Shown piece after piece: positions 55,648-63,823 of a DNA stretch of 64,000 nt. Every line of letters starts with the position of its first letter. Within the stretch, counting starts at the first letter, position 1. Both the position numbers and the translations under genes were made by a program. The stretch is from contig JAJECH010000012.1 of NCBI GenBank assembly GCA_022822135.1, positions 1-64,000 on the forward strand, written 5' to 3'. Source of the stretch: Pseudomonadales bacterium (lineage in GTDB: Bacteria; Pseudomonadota; Gammaproteobacteria; Pseudomonadales; Azotimanducaceae). The notes beneath the pieces are model-generated. The model was not told the DNA's origin. It did no database searches and was given only the letters and a program-made list of their open reading frames with translations.

Positions 55648-56124
55648 ATGGCATTTCACGACTACAACATGAAAGCGATTGACGGTACGGATGTATCGTT
55701 CGATCAATTCAAAGGTAAGCACTGTTTGGTGGTCAATGTCGCAAGCGATTGTGGCTATACCAAACAATATGAGGGTCTCGAAAAGCTACAGCAAGATTTC
55801 GCAGCGAAGGACTTTACGGTCTTGGGATTTCCATGCAACCAATTCGGCGAGCAGGAACCTGGTACGGATGCGCAGATCTGTGAGTTTGCGCAATCGCAAT
55901 ACGGCGCGTCATTCCCGCTCTTCAGCAAGGTCGAAGTTCGTGATGACGGCGCATGTGATTTGTATCAGTGGCTTACATCTCAAAAAACACGACCTAACGG
56001 CAAACCTAACATCGGCTGGAACTTCACCAAGTTCCTGATTGACGGCGACGGGAATGTACTTGACCGCTTTGAACCACAAGTCACTCCTGAAGAAATCGCG
56101 GTTACTTTGAGTAAGGTCCTTTAA
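55648..56124 (+). CDS. Glutathione peroxidase family thiol peroxidase (Cys type)
   Basis: The 158-residue thioredoxin-fold peroxidase has VNVASDCGYTKQYEGL with the peroxidatic Cys, the conserved GFPCNQFGEQEPG, and WNFTKFLID with the catalytic Trp/Asn. It reduces hydroperoxides in the cytoplasm with thioredoxin or glutathione. Cys, not Sec, occupies the active site here, unlike the glutaredoxin candidate 5 kb downstream. It starts 9 nt after the hydratase gene behind GAGGATCAG. Confidence 0.94.
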   Translation: MAFHDYNMKAIDGTDVSFDQFKGKHCLVVNVASDCGYTKQYEGLEKLQQDFAAKDFTVLGFPCNQFGEQEPGTDAQICEFAQSQYGASFPLFSKVEVRDDGACDLYQWLTSQKTRPNGKPNIGWNFTKFLIDGDGNVLDRFEPQVTPEEIAVTLSKVL

Positions 56125-56592: not shown

Positions 56593-58410
56593 GTGGACTG
56601 CAAATTCATGCGCGTCGCAGGTGCTCTTCAGTCGTTCTACACCGTTCCAGTCTATCAACGCGAATACGTATGGGACAGCGAAAACGTGAATCAGCTTTTA
56701 AACGATATTCGAGATAACACAGAAGCGTCCGCAACTGGAGCGCCAATTGCTGATTCTGATGTCTATTTCATAGGCTCGATCGTCGTGGTGGTTGAGAATA
56801 ACGCACCGCAAAAGTTCGTCTTGATCGATGGGCAGCAGCGTCTGACCACTCTATTCCTGATTCTCTGCGGCATTAAGGCAAGACTCACCGAGCTAGGAGA
56901 AGACACTCCGAATTGGTTAAACGACACACTTAGGAACGTTGTTGTTGACGCTAAGGGGGACGACAAGCACGAATATCGCTTGGAGCTCAATTACAAGAAG
57001 AATCAAGAAATTCTGATCGAAGCTTTCAGAGGTGATGTGACTGTGAAGGCTTCTGAGAGTCGAACTCCGTCACAAAAAAACATGGTCCAAGCCTTTACCT
57101 GCGTGCGCGATTTCTTGAAGGAGTATGAGTCCAGCGTTGCCTTGAAGCAGTTCGCAGCGGATCTACAGAATAAAGTAGGCCTTGTCCGTATTGAGACGAG
57201 TGATATGCAAAAAGCCCTTGTCGTGTTCGAGACGCTCAATGATCGGGGCGTCGGGTTAGACGCATTCGACCTCTTGAAGAATCTGCTCTATAAGGAAGTA
57301 AGCAACGATCAAACTAGCAATCAGTTAACTGAGATTTGGAATGAAATCAAAGATTACATTGCCGATAGCGCTCACATACGACCTCTCAGATTTCTTCGTT
57401 ATTTCCTATTCAGTATCGACGACGACATCGGTAACAAACCCCCAACCGAGCAGAAGGCGTTCTCGTGGTTTCAAAATAATGAGAACCTTGACAGGTTTTC
57501 GATAAACCACCAACCAATTAAGTTTGCAAAACGACTTCATTCGGCGGCGAAACACTATAACGAAATGCTGACCAGAAGCCTTAACCATCTAGGTGAAAGA
57601 TCACCTGCAATGTCTTCTCTGAACTGTTTGGCTGGTAAAACCGCGAGACAACACATGGCACTGCTATTAACCGCGGCTGAAAAGAATTGCCCTAAAGAAA
57701 AATTTGAAAGGCTGGTCGAGAGTATTGAGTCAGTACTGTTCTACAGCTTCTCCACAGGATTGCGAAGCCAGACTTTAGAACAGCATTTCTCCGATTGGAC
57801 CCGCAGACTTAAGAAAATGAACTTGACGGACGATAGCGCGTTTGACGACTTGATTCAAGTTATGCGGAACGACATGATGGGAGCGTATACGCTGTTTTAC
57901 GAAGGATTTGATTCATTCAGTCAACTCAGCGTCAACCGAGCAAGACTGATCTACATCCTTGGTAAGTTCTTGCAGAATAGCGAGAAACTAAATAACGACT
58001 CAGACTACGCATTTTTGGATACCCTCATAGGTAAAAGTACCAGTAAGTTAGAAATTGAGCATGTCTATCCCCAAAACCCATCAACTGCATCGCGGGATGA
58101 ATTTGGCGTAACGGACGATGACGAATCGGAGGAATCAATTCGTCTCCTCAGCAATCTACTCTTAATGGAGGCAAGCCTGCAAAAATCGTGCAGCAACAAG
58201 CCGTATTCCGAGAAGAAGCTGAAATACAGCGAGTCACAATTCTGGATGGTAAAGAAGTTCGCGAAGGAGAATCCATTCGGTCCTTCCAGTCTCATCAAGG
58301 GATTGAAAGCTTGGCCAACTCACGAGGGTTGGAATCGTGAAGAGCTTCTTCGCCGCCAAGAGTTTCTCAAAGAGAAAGCTCGCGAAATCTGGAATTTCGG
58401 ACGTGGATAG
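56593..58410 (+). CDS. GmrSD-like type IV restriction protein (DUF262 + DUF1524)
   Basis: The 605-residue protein has an N-terminal DUF262 domain with VPVYQREYVW and the ParB/Srx-like nucleotide motif IDGQQRLTTL (about residues 78-87), plus ALVVFETLNDRGVGLDAFDLLKN. The C-terminal DUF1524 His-Me nuclease has IEHVYPQNP near residue 488. GmrSD enzymes cut modified phage DNA using NTP. Here both parts are in one chain, as in single-chain members. The start is GTG 56593, with AAGGAAAC upstream. It stands alone with 468 bp before and 237 bp after, without other recognisable defence genes adjacent. Confidence 0.9.
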   Translation: MDCKFMRVAGALQSFYTVPVYQREYVWDSENVNQLLNDIRDNTEASATGAPIADSDVYFIGSIVVVVENNAPQKFVLIDGQQRLTTLFLILCGIKARLTELGEDTPNWLNDTLRNVVVDAKGDDKHEYRLELNYKKNQEILIEAFRGDVTVKASESRTPSQKNMVQAFTCVRDFLKEYESSVALKQFAADLQNKVGLVRIETSDMQKALVVFETLNDRGVGLDAFDLLKNLLYKEVSNDQTSNQLTEIWNEIKDYIADSAHIRPLRFLRYFLFSIDDDIGNKPPTEQKAFSWFQNNENLDRFSINHQPIKFAKRLHSAAKHYNEMLTRSLNHLGERSPAMSSLNCLAGKTARQHMALLLTAAEKNCPKEKFERLVESIESVLFYSFSTGLRSQTLEQHFSDWTRRLKKMNLTDDSAFDDLIQVMRNDMMGAYTLFYEGFDSFSQLSVNRARLIYILGKFLQNSEKLNNDSDYAFLDTLIGKSTSKLEIEHVYPQNPSTASRDEFGVTDDDESEESIRLLSNLLLMEASLQKSCSNKPYSEKKLKYSESQFWMVKKFAKENPFGPSSLIKGLKAWPTHEGWNREELLRRQEFLKEKAREIWNFGRG

Positions 58411-58647: not shown

Positions 58648-60303
58648 ATGGCTACTGTAAATGGCGCGACTTTGATGGCGCGGAGCCTTAAGCAACAAGG
58701 TGTCGACTATATGTTTGGCATCGTCGGTTTCCCCGTCCAGGGTGTAGCCGCGGCTGCCCAAAACGAAGGGATCACCTACATCGGGATGCGCAACGAACAG
58801 GCAGCAAGCTACGCCGCGCACGCGGCAGGTTACCTCACGGGTCGACCGCAAGCATGCCTGACAGTCTCCGGTCCGGGGGTCATCCACGCTTTTCCCGGAT
58901 TGGCGAATGCAAAAGAAAACTGCTGGCCGATGATCTTGATCGGTGGCGCTTCCCCCGTGTACCAAAACGGTATGGGTGCGTTTCAGGAGGAACGTCAGAC
59001 AGAGCTAGCTGCGCCATATTGCAAGTACGCCCACAACATTGAACACGCCGAGCGTATTCCTTACTACGTTGCGCAGGCGGTACAAAGCTCGATCTATGGT
59101 CGACCAGGCCCAGTTTATTTGGACTTTCCAGATGACATCATTCGAGCAGAAGTCGAAGAAGACGAAGTCCAATCGGTTTCTAAAGTCCCTGAACCACCAC
59201 GAACACTCGCTGACCCAAGCGCAATTGAAGGTGCACTAGATGCGCTTGAGTCCGCAGAGAAACCGCTGGTTGTCGTAGGTAAAGGTATGGCATGGTCGCG
59301 AGCCGAAGATGAGGTTCGCGCGTTCATCGAACGCACGCAACTTCCTTTCCTTGCGTCTCCTATGGGTAAAGGTATTCTGCCGGATGACGATCCTCTATCT
59401 GTAGGCGCTGCACGAAGTACAGCACTCCGCGAAGCGGACGTGGTGTTCTTAATGGGCGCACGTCTGAATTGGATCATGCACTTCGGACTACCACCACGCT
59501 TCAATAAAGATGTGCGAGTCATTCAGCTCGACATCAATCCAGAAGAGATCGGTCGAAACGTCCAATCCGAAGTGGCGTTGGTCGGTGACGGCAAGGCAAT
59601 CACACAGCAGCTAAATACGGCGCTCGGCAATCGACAGTGGTTCTACCCAGACGAAACTGAATGGCGGCAAACATTGAAAGCGAAAGCGGACGACAACGCC
59701 GAGGCGGTGAAAGGCATGATCGAAGACGATGCGTCACCGATGAACTACTATCGGGCATTTAAAGACATCAACGAGTGGTTACCCGATGACGCGATCATCA
59801 TCGGTGAGGGTGCTAACACGATGGATATCGGACGCACGCAAATGCTCAACAAGCGAGCACGACATCGTCTCGACGCCGGCACGTATGGGACCATGGGTAT
59901 CGGTCTCGGTTTTGCGATCGCAGCCGCGGTCACCAATCCGGACCAACCGGTCGTATCCGTTCAAGGCGATTCCGCGTTCGGATTCTCTGGGATGGAAATC
60001 GAAACGATGGTTCGTTACAAGCTACCCGTAAAACTCATCGTCTTGAACAACGGCGGTATTGGCGGCGGTATCGGCCCGCTCAAGGAAGGTCAAACAGTAC
60101 CACCTGGCATCCTGACGTACGGCGCACACTATGAAGGCATGATGGAAGCCCTCGGTGGAAGAGGCTACTACGTTGAAGATCCTCAAAATCTGCGTGATGC
60201 ACTAGACGATGCGATGGCGTTTGATGGTCCGACACTAATTAACGTACCGCTCAATCCTCGCGCCGGACGCAAACCGCAACAGTTCGGCTGGCTTACCACA
60301 TAA
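58648..60303 (+). CDS. Thiamine-diphosphate 2-hydroxyacyl-CoA lyase / oxalyl-CoA decarboxylase
   Basis: The 551-residue ThDP enzyme has the catalytic Glu50 in GMRNEQAASYAAHAAGYL, the ThDP/Mg motif GDSAFGFSGMEIE ending at LNNGG, and EGANTMDIGRT plus GTMGIGLGFAIAAAV. This last pair is the signature shared by peroxisomal 2-hydroxyacyl-CoA lyase (HACL1) and bacterial oxalyl-CoA decarboxylase. Either activity releases formyl-CoA or CO2 from a CoA thioester. With six PhyH proteins and three CoA-transferase domains in the window, a lyase acting on 2-hydroxyacyl-CoA is attractive. It is the first gene of a probable seven-gene operon. Start ATG 58648 is behind AGGAGAAC. Confidence 0.92.
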   Translation: MATVNGATLMARSLKQQGVDYMFGIVGFPVQGVAAAAQNEGITYIGMRNEQAASYAAHAAGYLTGRPQACLTVSGPGVIHAFPGLANAKENCWPMILIGGASPVYQNGMGAFQEERQTELAAPYCKYAHNIEHAERIPYYVAQAVQSSIYGRPGPVYLDFPDDIIRAEVEEDEVQSVSKVPEPPRTLADPSAIEGALDALESAEKPLVVVGKGMAWSRAEDEVRAFIERTQLPFLASPMGKGILPDDDPLSVGAARSTALREADVVFLMGARLNWIMHFGLPPRFNKDVRVIQLDINPEEIGRNVQSEVALVGDGKAITQQLNTALGNRQWFYPDETEWRQTLKAKADDNAEAVKGMIEDDASPMNYYRAFKDINEWLPDDAIIIGEGANTMDIGRTQMLNKRARHRLDAGTYGTMGIGLGFAIAAAVTNPDQPVVSVQGDSAFGFSGMEIETMVRYKLPVKLIVLNNGGIGGGIGPLKEGQTVPPGILTYGAHYEGMMEALGGRGYYVEDPQNLRDALDDAMAFDGPTLINVPLNPRAGRKPQQFGWLTT

Positions 60304-60341
60304 ACAGCCACGTCTGACGTTCGTCGACCTATCATAGAGTC

Positions 60342-60803
60342 ATGACTGATCAGACCAAAGAACCGATCGGCAAACTCGATCACATCGGGTTTGCCGTTCA
60401 CAGCATCGAGGAAGCCAGAAAGTTCTGGGAAGACCAGCTGGGTGCAACGCTTCAACGAGTTGTAGATCACCACAGTGGCGACTTTCGGCTTGGTATCCTC
60501 GACTTACATGGATTCTGCATCGAGCTACTTGAACCGACGAATCCAGACGGATTCTTGCAGAAGTATCTCGAGAAACGCGGTGAAGGTGTTCATCACATAA
60601 CGCTGCAAACGCCAGAACTCATCGAAAAGGTTTCCGGTTTGGAAGAAGCTGGTGTACGCGTTGTGGACAAGCATTTCGACAAGGAAGAAGGCGGTGTTGA
60701 CGCATTCATTTCGCCTAAAAGTTCGCATGGCGTGTTGATCCAGCTTGGCGAGAATGTCGGTCCGCTGAATAATCCGCCGTTTTGGGAAACGGACAAACCT
60801 TGA
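60342..60803 (+). CDS. VOC-family protein, methylmalonyl-CoA epimerase-like
   Basis: The 153-residue glyoxalase-fold protein has metal-ligand candidates His14 in KLDHIGFAVH, Glu in CIELLEP and His in GEGVHHITLQ, plus SHGVLIQLGE at the C-terminus. This is the pattern of methylmalonyl-CoA epimerase and related VOC epimerases. Given the preceding acyl-CoA lyase it may epimerise an acyl-CoA. It starts 38 nt after the lyase gene; the next frame begins 8 nt after its stop. Confidence 0.87.
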   Translation: MTDQTKEPIGKLDHIGFAVHSIEEARKFWEDQLGATLQRVVDHHSGDFRLGILDLHGFCIELLEPTNPDGFLQKYLEKRGEGVHHITLQTPELIEKVSGLEEAGVRVVDKHFDKEEGGVDAFISPKSSHGVLIQLGENVGPLNNPPFWETDKP

Positions 60804-60811
60804 ACCAGCCT

Positions 60812-61543
60812 ATGCCGGTCGTTTATTGGCAACCGGGATGAACCAGTTGCTTACGGGTTAAAGAATTCCTCTCGACCCGTGCGGTCGAGTTTGTATCCGC
60901 AAATGTCCGAGAGGACGAATCACGGCAAGCAGAGCTCAGTTCGCTCGGTTTCAGCACCGTACCTATTGTCGCGGTCGGAAAACAAGCCGTACATGGTGTT
61001 GATTTACAACAAGTAGCGGGTTTGATCGGGCTTGTTTACAACTCAAACCCCGAACTCTCTCCCTCCGAACTTATAAACCGTCAGGTCGAATTACTGTCGA
61101 TTCTCGATAGTACGATCGACAGCATCCCTGAAACCGCGCACGACCAAAAGATTCCAGGTCGCGATCGAACCATTTGGAACCTCGTTGAGCACATGTGCGA
61201 AATCGCCCATGTCTATCAACGAGTTGCAGAAGGTACATCAACGTTTGACGCCGCCGCGGCAGACGCCGAAGTTACAGGTAAATCAACGCTTGACCAACTC
61301 CACGCTTCACTCGACAGTCTCAGGGACAATCTGTCGCGTGAAACCTACGAATACGAAAAGCAGGTTGAAACGTATTTCGGCGTCGCGTCGCTACATTACG
61401 TACTTGAGCGCAGCACGTGGCATATCGCTCAACATCTAAGACAGCTTGCGAGTCTTATGCGAGGCATCGACAAGTCGATCATGGAGGATATTGACACGAA
61501 GCTTCTAGATCGGCTACCCATCCCGAACGAGGTCTGGGACTGA
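60812..61543 (+). CDS. Glutaredoxin-DinB fusion with in-frame TGA at the redox Cys (candidate selenoprotein)
   Basis: From ATG 60812 the frame reads MPVVYWQPG, TGA (60839-60841), then TSCLRVKEFL, and stays open to 61543. With the TGA read as selenocysteine it gives 243 residues. The N-terminal part is a full glutaredoxin fold: strand VVYWQPG, U10-x-x-C13, helix CLRVKEFL, strand VEFVSANV, and the cis-Pro loop STVPIVAVG. The rest is DinB-like, with WNLVEHM and WHIAQHLRQL supplying the three His. It is 8 nt after the VOC gene. If TGA is a true stop, translation could only start later, for example at TTG 61022, leaving the DinB part alone. A Cys-to-stop mutation (TGC or TGT to TGA) is the main alternative. 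Confidence 0.7.
60871..60889 (+). promoter_or_regulatory. Candidate bacterial SECIS hairpin
   Basis: CTCGACC (60871-60877) pairs perfectly with GGTCGAG (60883-60889) around the loop CGTGC. It begins 29 nt after the in-frame TGA. Bacterial SECIS elements are hairpins within the coding sequence shortly downstream of UGA, with a short apical loop carrying a G near its 5' side. Spacing, stem length and loop all fit that description. The call is inferential, because such stems also occur by chance. Confidence 0.5.
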
Positions 61544-61544
61544 G

Positions 61545-61970
61545 TTGAGTCGATCTTCACAAAAACGTCCCATCGGTGCGAAGAAATTCGTCATACTGCA
61601 CCACAGTAAGTGCTATCGAGACTCATTCCATTACCGCATTTGCGCGGACGCTGAAATCGAACACCTCGAGAGCGACGACTTGAGCACCCAACACCCAAAC
61701 TCTATCGGAATCGAGTTAGTAGGGGATTTCGATCACGACCCTGTCCCCTCCGCGCAGTTGCAAGCGCTTAAAGATCTGCTACTAGAGCTCAAATTACGAT
61801 ATCCTGCGATCCAGGTTGGCGCGCATCGACAAATCAGAGGCGACCGAAAAACGTCATGCCCGGGACGTAGATTTCCGATGCGTGAATTACGTGAATGGGC
61901 AGCCACCCACCTCATTGACCAACGTGACGACATCCTTCGCGAAGTGATCGAGTCTCAATACCGCCCTTAG
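61545..61970 (+). CDS. PGRP/Amidase_2-type N-acetylmuramoyl-L-alanine amidase-like protein
   Basis: The 141-residue zinc amidase fold has ligands His in FVILHHS, His in VGAHRQI and Cys in KTSCPGRRFP, with NSIGIELVGDFDHD as the central strand. It has no signal peptide, so it may act in the cytoplasm on recycled muropeptides, like AmpD, or on another amide. The N-terminal part is shorter than usual. The start is TTG 61545, 1 nt after the preceding stop (TGAGTTG). Confidence 0.85.
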   Translation: MSRSSQKRPIGAKKFVILHHSKCYRDSFHYRICADAEIEHLESDDLSTQHPNSIGIELVGDFDHDPVPSAQLQALKDLLLELKLRYPAIQVGAHRQIRGDRKTSCPGRRFPMRELREWAATHLIDQRDDILREVIESQYRP

Positions 61971-62011: not shown

Positions 62012-62908
62012 ATGGACATTGCCGCTCAGGGAGCACAACCAAATCTCGACGGTCTCTTTCAAGATCTTGAGCGGTACGGACTAATGAAGTACGCCCTCGA
62101 ACTCGACGCGTACGGCATGACGGTGATTCCGCCCGAAACGATGGGAGTCGACGCGGATTTCGTCACGCGACTAAGAGACGCAATCATCCGCACGTGTGAA
62201 AAGCGCAATGACCTTTCCATCGGCGATCCAGCTGATTCTTCACCCGAAGATGTCGGCAAAGCCTTCATTAATTCGTGGTACTTGCTGCAGGAAGACGAGG
62301 TCTTCGTCGAGGCTGCGTTGAATCCGCGCGTACTGACCATGGCACGCTGGCTGTGCGGTCAAAGTGCCGTTTTAGCTGGACATACGTGGATCATCAAACC
62401 GAAAACCAAACATGGATTAGGTTTGCACAGCGATGCTCACGGTATTCCTCCTGGCGGCGGACATATCGCTCACGTGGCGAACCTCTCCTGGTTGTGTACT
62501 GATTACACATCGGCAGATGACGGACCAACGGTATTCGTACCCGGAAGTCATCGTTATGGTCGTGCGACACTACCGCACGAGTCTTCGCTTGAAGAGACAC
62601 CTTTTCCGGTTGTAACACTTGAAGGTGAAGCTGGATCACTTGCCGTTTGGCACGGTTCGACGTGGCACGGCTCGCAACCGCGAAAGAATCCCGGCTTGAG
62701 AGTGACCTTGGTGCAGGTGTTCATGCGAATGCACATGCGACCGATTCACCTTTGGGATCGTGATGAGATCAGCAGCAACCTACTCTCCAAGTATCCAGAA
62801 CTGGAACGTGTATTAGGTCTTGAATCGCTGTACCCCTATAAAGAACACAATCATCATCCTGAACGTGTTGGTCCGTTTATGAAAACAGGTACCGACCCGT
62901 TCGCGTAA
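62012..62908 (+). CDS. PhyH-family oxygenase 6 (298 aa)
   Basis: Predicted Fe(II)/2-oxoglutarate dioxygenase with His139-Ser-Asp141 in LGLHSDAHG and distal His219 in STWHGSQPRKNPGLR. The loop between them has PTVFVPGSHRYGR, the typical strand preceding the distal His. It is 41 nt after the amidase and 27 nt before the lactonase gene, inside the operon headed by the hydroxyacyl-CoA lyase. Its role may be to supply a 2-hydroxylated substrate to that lyase, which is inference. Confidence 0.87.
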   Translation: MDIAAQGAQPNLDGLFQDLERYGLMKYALELDAYGMTVIPPETMGVDADFVTRLRDAIIRTCEKRNDLSIGDPADSSPEDVGKAFINSWYLLQEDEVFVEAALNPRVLTMARWLCGQSAVLAGHTWIIKPKTKHGLGLHSDAHGIPPGGGHIAHVANLSWLCTDYTSADDGPTVFVPGSHRYGRATLPHESSLEETPFPVVTLEGEAGSLAVWHGSTWHGSQPRKNPGLRVTLVQVFMRMHMRPIHLWDRDEISSNLLSKYPELERVLGLESLYPYKEHNHHPERVGPFMKTGTDPFA

Positions 62909-62935
62909 CGATCGCACGATACAAAGAGATTCAAA

Positions 62936-63823
62936 TTGGGTATTGAAGTCAGAGATTCACGACTACTCGACATAGTCAACGAAGGCACTGAACTGGAAGT
63001 TCTCGGCGATGGATTCGGATTCACGGAGGGACCAATCTGGCACCCTCACCAAAAACACCTTACGTTTTCGGACATTCCTAGTAACCGTATGCATCGTTGG
63101 TCCGAAGCGACCGGTGTGACGGTCTACCGTGAGCCGAGTAACCTCGCCAACGGTAACACCTTCGACAAGCAAGGCCGGATTTTGTCGTGTGAACACGGCA
63201 CAAGCCGAGTGGTGCGCGAGGAACTTGACGGTTCGATAAACGTCCTAGCAAGCCACTGGGATGGGAAAGAACTCAATAGTCCGAATGACATTGTCGTACG
63301 GAGTAACGGAGACATCTTCTTCACGGATCCCACGTTCGGAAGGGCTGACCATACGGGGATACCACGCGAACTCGAGCTGGACCATAGAGGCGTCTACAAG
63401 ATTGACGGACAATCTGGGGAGTTAGCGCTCTTGCGAAGCGACTTTACCCAACCAAATGGTTTAGCCTTCAGCCAAGACGAACAATGTCTTTACGTCGCCG
63501 ACACCCCCGAGATGCACATCCGCAAATTCAATGTTGCTGATGACGGCTCGCTGACTGGCGGCGAAGTGTTCACGAGATCTTCTGGTCAAGGCGCTGGAGC
63601 TCCAGACGGCTTAAAGGTGGACTCGAACGACGATGTCTATTGCTGTGGTCCAGGTGGTGTTCACGTCTACGCACCGGATGGCGTATGCTTAGGAGTGATT
63701 CAAACGCCAGCATTCTGCGCTAATTTCACCTGGGGCGACGATGACTACCTCACGTTTTACATGACTTCCTCGAATCACCTTTATCGGATTCCGGTAAAAG
63801 TACCAGGGGTTCCGCTTTTCTAA
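62936..63823 (+). CDS. SMP-30/gluconolactonase family lactonase
   Basis: The 295-residue six-bladed beta-propeller has the metal-site segments GFTEGPIWHP (Glu), LNSPNDIVVRSNGDIFFTDP (Asn, Asp) and APDGLKVDSND (Asp). It hydrolyses sugar or other lactones to hydroxyacids and has no signal peptide. The start is TTG 62936, with AAAGAGA upstream. It is co-directional with the PhyH gene 27 nt before and a membrane-protein gene 49 nt after. Confidence 0.92.
   Translation: MGIEVRDSRLLDIVNEGTELEVLGDGFGFTEGPIWHPHQKHLTFSDIPSNRMHRWSEATGVTVYREPSNLANGNTFDKQGRILSCEHGTSRVVREELDGSINVLASHWDGKELNSPNDIVVRSNGDIFFTDPTFGRADHTGIPRELELDHRGVYKIDGQSGELALLRSDFTQPNGLAFSQDEQCLYVADTPEMHIRKFNVADDGSLTGGEVFTRSSGQGAGAPDGLKVDSNDDVYCCGPGGVHVYAPDGVCLGVIQTPAFCANFTWGDDDYLTFYMTSSNHLYRIPVKVPGVPLF

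Follow-up and report, generated by a model that had tools for sequence, protein, structure and literature searches.

The stretch of 64,000 nucleotides analysed here (hereafter the window) holds a gene for a glutaredoxin domain joined to a DinB domain, and a TGA codon lies in frame at the glutaredoxin active site. The question that this locus raises is whether the TGA is read as selenocysteine (Sec) or ends translation there, and, if it is read, what a protein that combines these two domains might do.

A preliminary description, made from the sequence alone, had placed a single in-frame stop at the N-terminal position of the CxxC motif, and this is seen in the translation: the one internal stop in 60812–61543 is the TGA at 60839–60841, codon 10, in the context VVYWQPG-*-TSCL (Table 1). 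The frame and its end were likewise borne out, whereas the proposed start at ATG 60812 probably needs a small correction. Comparison of sequences indicates that translation probably starts at TTG 60800, a codon overlapping the stop with which the upstream gene ends (60803), because the four nearest relatives have a start codon at that position (TTG in three, ATG in one) and none of the four has one at the place of ATG 60812.

Table 1. Coordinates of the fusion gene, its features and its neighbours in the window.
Feature	Position	Strand	Remarks
Putative Sec-glutaredoxin-DinB gene	60800..61543	+	probable start TTG 60800, alternative ATG 60812; true stop TGA 61541-61543
Glutaredoxin domain	60812..61030 (3' border approximate)	+	PF00462; cis-Pro codon 60962-60964
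TGA, very probably read as selenocysteine	60839..60841	+	residue 10 from ATG 60812; first position of UxxC
Resolving Cys of UxxC, TGC	60848..60850	+	Cys in 71/71 aligned homologues
Candidate bSECIS hairpin	60871..60889	+	7-bp stem, loop CGUGC 60878-60882; covariation, MFE, synonymous recoding, published model
DinB domain, thiol S-transferase-like superfamily	61049..61456 (borders approximate)	+	PF12867; three His in 71/71
DinB His codons	61190-61192, 61421-61423, 61433-61435	+	conserved in 71/71
TPP enzyme, oxalyl-CoA-decarboxylase-like	58648..60303	+	PRK09259 580 bits, cut-off 557; same order in G007, G040
Glyoxalase-fold gene, methylmalonyl-CoA-epimerase-like	60342..60803	+	Glyoxalase_4 61.6 bits; same place in G007, G040
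Amidase_2 (N-acetylmuramoyl-L-alanine amidase) gene, immediately downstream	61545..61970	+	PF01510 41.4 bits; G007, G040 alike

Conservation of the TGA codon and of the frame behind it

Homologues were sought at the level of family, order, class and phylum. Among 200 genomes of the family, 34 gave a match; in 30 of them it was near full length and contained a single TGA, and in the other 4 it was partial. The order search (244 genomes) gave a match in 18, with full length in four, all from the same family. The class search (369 genomes) gave a match in 54 and the phylum search (398 genomes) in 78; apart from that of the window's own genome, the only full-length match was in G552 for the class and in G910 for the phylum. 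In the order of G910, which belongs to another class and is termed here the second order, 65 of the 76 genomes have a full-length gene with one TGA, 3 have incomplete pieces with one TGA, and the fusion is absent from 8; for the order of G552 the search set was one genome. A scan of genome contigs returned three loci, all in MAGs of Gammaproteobacteria and on the same contigs as three from the family search.

We read 63 distinct Sec-type genes: the full set of 30 from the family and, out of the 65 in the second order, 33, of which 30 were the best-scoring matches. In every one of the 63 the TGA occupies an identical position, within WQPG-TGA-(T/S)(S/G)CL; the active-site motif is UTSC, replaced by USSC or UTGC in four. 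An alignment of homologues at this codon, as the preliminary description had proposed, therefore gives TGA in the 63 Sec-type genes and Cys in all eight Cys-type genes read (seven checked as TGC or TGT). The frames of the 63 genes run on for 238–249 residues, counting from seven residues before the TGA. Since each frame was extended to the next stop by construction, the number of stops within these frames is uninformative, and the lack of extra stops rests on the frame lengths and on the stop counts of the family and second-order searches. In those searches each of the 30 and 65 full-length matches holds one stop, a TGA, which agrees with the earlier argument that its placement is beyond chance; scattered stops in close relatives, which had been named as evidence against a selenoprotein, do not appear in the full-length relatives.

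Selection on the frame was estimated from dN/dS (Nei-Gojobori) over the 65 codons that follow the TGA. Values for the window gene against L022–L025 were 0.10–0.21, the comparison with the fifth nearest relative, L026, being saturated, and five other pairs gave 0.10–0.55, with 0.55 in one of the five. Purifying selection past the TGA argues against a pseudogene or a sequencing error. A true nonsense mutation or an error would fit an interrupted frame in a draft genome (3.75 Mb, 63 contigs, 97.6% complete), and one family genome, G057, carries a weak match (C43:17669–18073, E 2.5e-4) to residues 74–208 only that holds three stops, one each of TGA, TAG and TAA; this is possibly a decayed copy, or a chance match. 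Set against this are the single TGA of the 95 full-length matches, its identical position in the 63 genes read and the dN/dS of 0.10–0.55 in nine computable pairs. We regard this explanation as refuted, because the TGA is conserved together with a conserved frame behind it.

A second alternative is that the TGA closes a short leader peptide and that reinitiation, for example at TTG 61022, from which a 173-aa ORF runs, yields a separate DinB protein. However, purifying selection also acts between the TGA and about 61036, as the four nearest pairs show, and Cys13, Glu18, Phe19 and Pro51, which are encoded there, are identical in all 71 aligned homologues (63 Sec, 8 Cys). The Cys homologues, moreover, run straight through the codon. 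We consider reinitiation very improbable.

A candidate bSECIS hairpin and the selenocysteine machinery

The perfect 7-bp hairpin of the preliminary description was found again (CTCGACC-CGTGC-GGTCGAG); it begins 29 nt after the TGA, and the distance from UGA to loop is 36 nt. The bacterial SECIS model as given in PMC13188914 has a loop of 3–9 nt, a stem of 4–16 bp, a G in the first two loop positions, a distance of 16–37 nt from the UGA and an MFE of at most −7.5 kcal mol−1. Applied by hand, all of these published constraints fit the hairpin, which has an energy of −10.2 kcal mol−1 in isolation. The hairpin is missing from the seven Cys forms that were folded.

Covariation was assessed across the 30 family sequences. 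It can be seen that 92.9% of the cells are paired, against 13–44% in slid controls, and that there are 20 double changes; neither figure was reached by any of 500 shuffles, and two of the five covariation measures were unremarkable (48 and 73 of 500 shuffles). In the second order 198 of 231 cells pair, and in seven Cys forms 16 of 49. Three family genes (L037, L040 and L041) pair poorly in this register, and the one stretch folded for them forms a shifted 6-bp hairpin with loop GUGC at −8.0 kcal mol−1. The median MFE of the hairpin region is −8.1 kcal mol−1 for the 63 Sec forms versus −1.9 for the 7 Cys forms, the energy limit being reached by 52 of the 63 and missed by 11. In a synonymous-recoding control the Sec forms have a median z of −2.06, with 33 of 63 passing 0.05, and the Cys forms a median z of 0.12, with none of seven passing. 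When the 61 nt from the TGA of the window gene are folded freely, another structure is preferred over the hairpin (z −1.08); presumably the ribosome would keep part of this stretch unfolded. An RNAalifold helix spanning the TGA was set aside, since only one of its seven pairs changes on both sides and that pair is broken in six sequences.

The codons beneath the hairpin also differ between the two forms. The loop Arg codon specifies Arg in 63/63 Sec forms and 0/8 Cys forms, and a Ser codon under the hairpin specifies Ser in 63/63 and 2/8, respectively. Because Ser and Arg are fixed in the Sec forms and the Arg is missing from the Cys forms, the RNA element appears, as far as the alignment tells, to constrain the protein sequence.

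The preliminary description had proposed a search for selA, selB, selC and selD in the same genome, and all four are present. The tRNA-Sec scores 71.1 bits (cut-off 47) and is labelled tRNA-SeC by ARAGORN, and SelB, SelA and SelD score 411.6, 544.8 and 256.7 bits, each above its cut-off; there is a 4-nt overlap between the frames of selB and selA. A tRNA-Sec match above cut-off was obtained in 145 of the 200 family genomes, although some of these matches, at 48–50 bits, may be other long tRNAs. Such a match is present in 28 of 30 carriers of the fusion versus 117 of 170 non-carriers (Fisher p 0.004, uncorrected for kinship). The two other carriers, G069 and G111 (77% and 92% complete), have weak tRNA-Sec matches with best E-values of 1.4e-7 and 2.4e-7. 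Outside the family this relationship was checked in G910 and G552: G910, with the TGA form, has a tRNA-SeC, and none was found in G552, which has the Cys form and is 94% complete, its two best matches being a tRNA-Ser and a tRNA-Leu, one of which scores above the cut-off.

These data bear on whether UGA might be decoded otherwise, either as Trp through a changed code or, in cells short of selenium, as Cys carried on tRNA-Sec. It is conceivable that the Sec machinery inserts Cys when selenium runs low. Against a different decoding, the gene itself and its upstream neighbour both terminate in TGA, the aligned residue is Cys in the eight non-TGA homologues that were read, and the genome possesses the Sec machinery. 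We judge it highly unlikely.

We conclude that the gene very probably encodes a selenoprotein in which UGA 60839 specifies selenocysteine, as the preliminary description had suggested; the conserved TGA, the exchange of Sec and Cys, the machinery, the SECIS-like hairpin and purifying selection together lend this reading strong support. The hairpin at 60871–60889 would guide the ribosome in decoding UGA 60839 by means of SelB and tRNA-Sec, and the product would be a two-domain enzyme of 243–247 residues, with an N-terminal U-T-S-C glutaredoxin domain and a C-terminal DinB metal domain.

Two further observations concern this genome. A glutathione peroxidase gene (PF00255, 131 bits; window 55648–56124) lies four genes upstream of the fusion and is a Cys form (NVASDCGYT), the Cys of this motif being what we take to be the catalytic position, in a genome that has Sec machinery. 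SelD is contained in a 737-aa frame (L065 1387–3600, contig C26) whose N-terminal half resembles, by eye, an FAD oxidoreductase; this is apparently an Ndh-SelD fusion, a type described as common in marine samples (PMC2398784).

Relatives of the fusion: selenocysteine and cysteine forms

The sequence around the TGA had been described as clean glutaredoxin, including the cis-Pro loop. In agreement with this, Pfam Glutaredoxin (PF00462) matches residues 3–59 with 42.6 bits (cut-off 22.9) and 30/30 family members at E 0.001, and Cys13 and the cis-Pro, Pro51, are found in 71/71 aligned homologues. By profile the nearest solved structure to this domain is 7c10 (Dithiol cGrx1; E 2.7e-15), which from its name we infer to belong to PMC7642778, and cGrx1 is also a fold match to the domain (TMt 0.79–0.82, E 0.03). 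The cGrx1 of Clostridium oremlandii is a native selenoprotein with a U(or C)PXC motif (PMC7642778). It consists of one small domain with U/C-P-X-C, whereas the present protein has UTSC as its motif and carries a DinB domain after the glutaredoxin domain.

Selenocysteine-containing glutaredoxins are thus already known, one of them proven, and the new part is the fusion to DinB. The Grx and Grx-like selenoproteins of the Sargasso Sea and GOS data sets are, like the present protein, Sec proteins of glutaredoxin type with predicted bacterial SECIS elements (PMC1088965, PMC2398784), and the GOS table lists UxxC for those of Grx type (PMC2398784). They differ in being entered as Grx or Grx-like, and the fusions named in the parts of these two papers that were covered do not include DinB (PMC1088965, PMC2398784). 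Metagenomic pieces of the present family could be hidden among these older Grx entries. The Uxx-star family (NF041212) is also a Sec or Cys glutaredoxin-like protein, but its cut-off is 66 bits and the window protein, with 27.6, falls outside it. The window protein likewise scores below the cut-off of every other NCBIfam model. The word DinB is absent from the main texts of PMC13188914, PMC9312934, PMC12013277 and PMC2398784, and the titles and abstract openings searched describe no Sec-glutaredoxin-DinB protein. These searches agree with the earlier view that the combination is new.

Cys-type glutaredoxin-DinB fusions occur on plasmids of Rhizobium, Caballeronia, Variovorax and Roseomonas. 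Among 72,556 plasmid records 16 match; 13 of these cover at least 80% of the query, in fact 98–99% at 27–35% identity. The five plasmid homologues read (of the 16) encode the active-site residue with TGC or TGT and, unlike the Sec forms, lack a SECIS hairpin; four that are annotated are labelled as DinB family or glutaredoxin domain-containing proteins. Two of the 65 second-order genomes also carry a second copy of the fusion without any stop, so that G1208 (L176) and G1213 (L177) each hold a TGA-type and a Cys-type copy and provide a natural Sec/Cys pair.

A tree of 70 of the 71 sequences (L176 omitted; drawn with midpoint rooting) places the 30 family Sec forms on one side of a branch with support 100/99, and the 33 second-order Sec forms on one side of another with support 100/100. 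The seven Cys forms lie with the second order in this drawing and form a group at weak support (48/88); their placement is unsure because of long branches. The Sec forms may have arisen by two gains, by one gain with losses, or by horizontal transfer.

The DinB domain, its gene neighbours and a proposed function

The DinB_2 model (PF12867) aligns with residues 98–212 of the window protein at 24.3 bits, just below the cut-off of 24.8. A match to Polyoma_VP2, with 20.4 bits, was below its cut-off of 30 and was ignored. His127, His204 and His208 are present in all 71 aligned homologues, the last two forming an HxxxH motif. In the bacillithiol transferases of B. subtilis, whose activity depends on a metal, full conservation is limited to H67, H160 and H164 (PMC5815605). 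BstA-H accordingly share with the DinB domain of the fusion a set of three conserved His that ends in HxxxH, and differ in that, as described there, they have neither a glutaredoxin domain nor Sec and use bacillithiol as the thiol (PMC5815605); for the fusion protein glutathione is expected instead, glutathione being found in Gram-negative bacteria (PMC5815605). The same paper mentions two-domain STL thiol transferases and, in the title of a reference, includes glutathione S-transferases in the DinB superfamily (PMC5815605).

A structure model of the window protein, built from four sequences, is mediocre (mean pLDDT 64), and none of its fold matches reaches E 0.001. Over the whole chain the matches are glutathione transferases with poor rmsd; over the second domain they are of DinB type (5wk0, 2qe9, 3gor and 2p1a, including S. 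aureus BstA), all with E above 0.02.

The resemblance of the His triad to that of the bacillithiol transferases, together with the cGrx1 and DinB-type fold matches, leads us to propose, tentatively and at somewhat less than even confidence, that the fusion is a DinB thiol-transferase with its own Sec-glutaredoxin reductase. The DinB domain would bind a metal through His127, His204 and His208 and would transfer a low-molecular-weight thiol, which is probably glutathione, to or from a small substrate; the Sec-glutaredoxin domain would then reduce the resulting mixed disulfide or oxidised intermediate, and transfer and reduction would thereby be carried by one chain. A different reading keeps the Sec-glutaredoxin and makes the DinB domain a scaffold, or a binding partner for a substrate enzyme, with no thiol-transferase activity. 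It draws on the match of DinB_2 to only 15 of 30 family members at E 0.001, on the weak best sequence match of the domain in the PDB (3dka, E 0.022) and on gene neighbours that vary among lineages, but it sits less easily with the retention of all three metal-site His throughout the homologues. We consider it possible, though less likely than not.

Three of the nine carriers in the genus were examined for gene neighbours, and the order TPP enzyme, glyoxalase-fold gene, fusion gene, amidase is kept in these three (the own genome, G007 and G040). The TPP enzyme is below the cut-off of TIGR03254, though above that of PRK09259, and the glyoxalase-fold gene scores 87.5 bits with TIGR03081, below the cut-off of 114.95. 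A PhyH dioxygenase and an SMP-30/gluconolactonase-type protein also neighbour the gene (window 62012–63823). The neighbours at 58648–60803 and 62012–63823 may belong to a small-molecule route, perhaps one resembling alpha-oxidation. Further upstream, a 605-aa ORF at 56593–58410 (PADLOC HEC-06 214 bits, Orf5 212 bits) is a candidate defence protein.

The other lineages examined have different genes around the fusion, and the conserved neighbourhood was therefore set aside as a clue to the substrate: it holds in three genus members and fails elsewhere. In G062 and G1221 the Sec form lies beside TauD/TfdA dioxygenase genes, and the Cys form on a Variovorax plasmid has a TPP enzyme and a TauD/TfdA dioxygenase nearby. 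These TPP enzyme and TauD/TfdA neighbours suggest a role in small-molecule catabolism, the substrate of which they do not name. On the thiol-transferase reading, the protein might be a selenium-dependent bifunctional enzyme that transfers a cellular thiol onto a small electrophile, releases the product reductively and serves the catabolism of small molecules in two Pseudomonadota classes; we offer this as a guess that is more likely to need revision than to hold in full.

The bacterial selenoproteome gains a conserved fusion, represented by 95 full-length genes of the TGA type. A gene finder that halts at the TGA would presumably split such a gene or lose its active site. The occurrence of Sec and Cys forms in one family, and of both in two genomes, provides a natural test of what selenium contributes. 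Known assays could be used to test the proposed function: thiol-transferase activity of DinB proteins has been established with bacillithiol (PMC5815605), and the glutaredoxin of solved structure closest to this domain is natively a selenoprotein (PMC7642778). If the proposal is true, it would connect selenium with the thiol conjugation carried out in the DinB superfamily, a group in which the titles and abstract openings searched yielded no selenoprotein.
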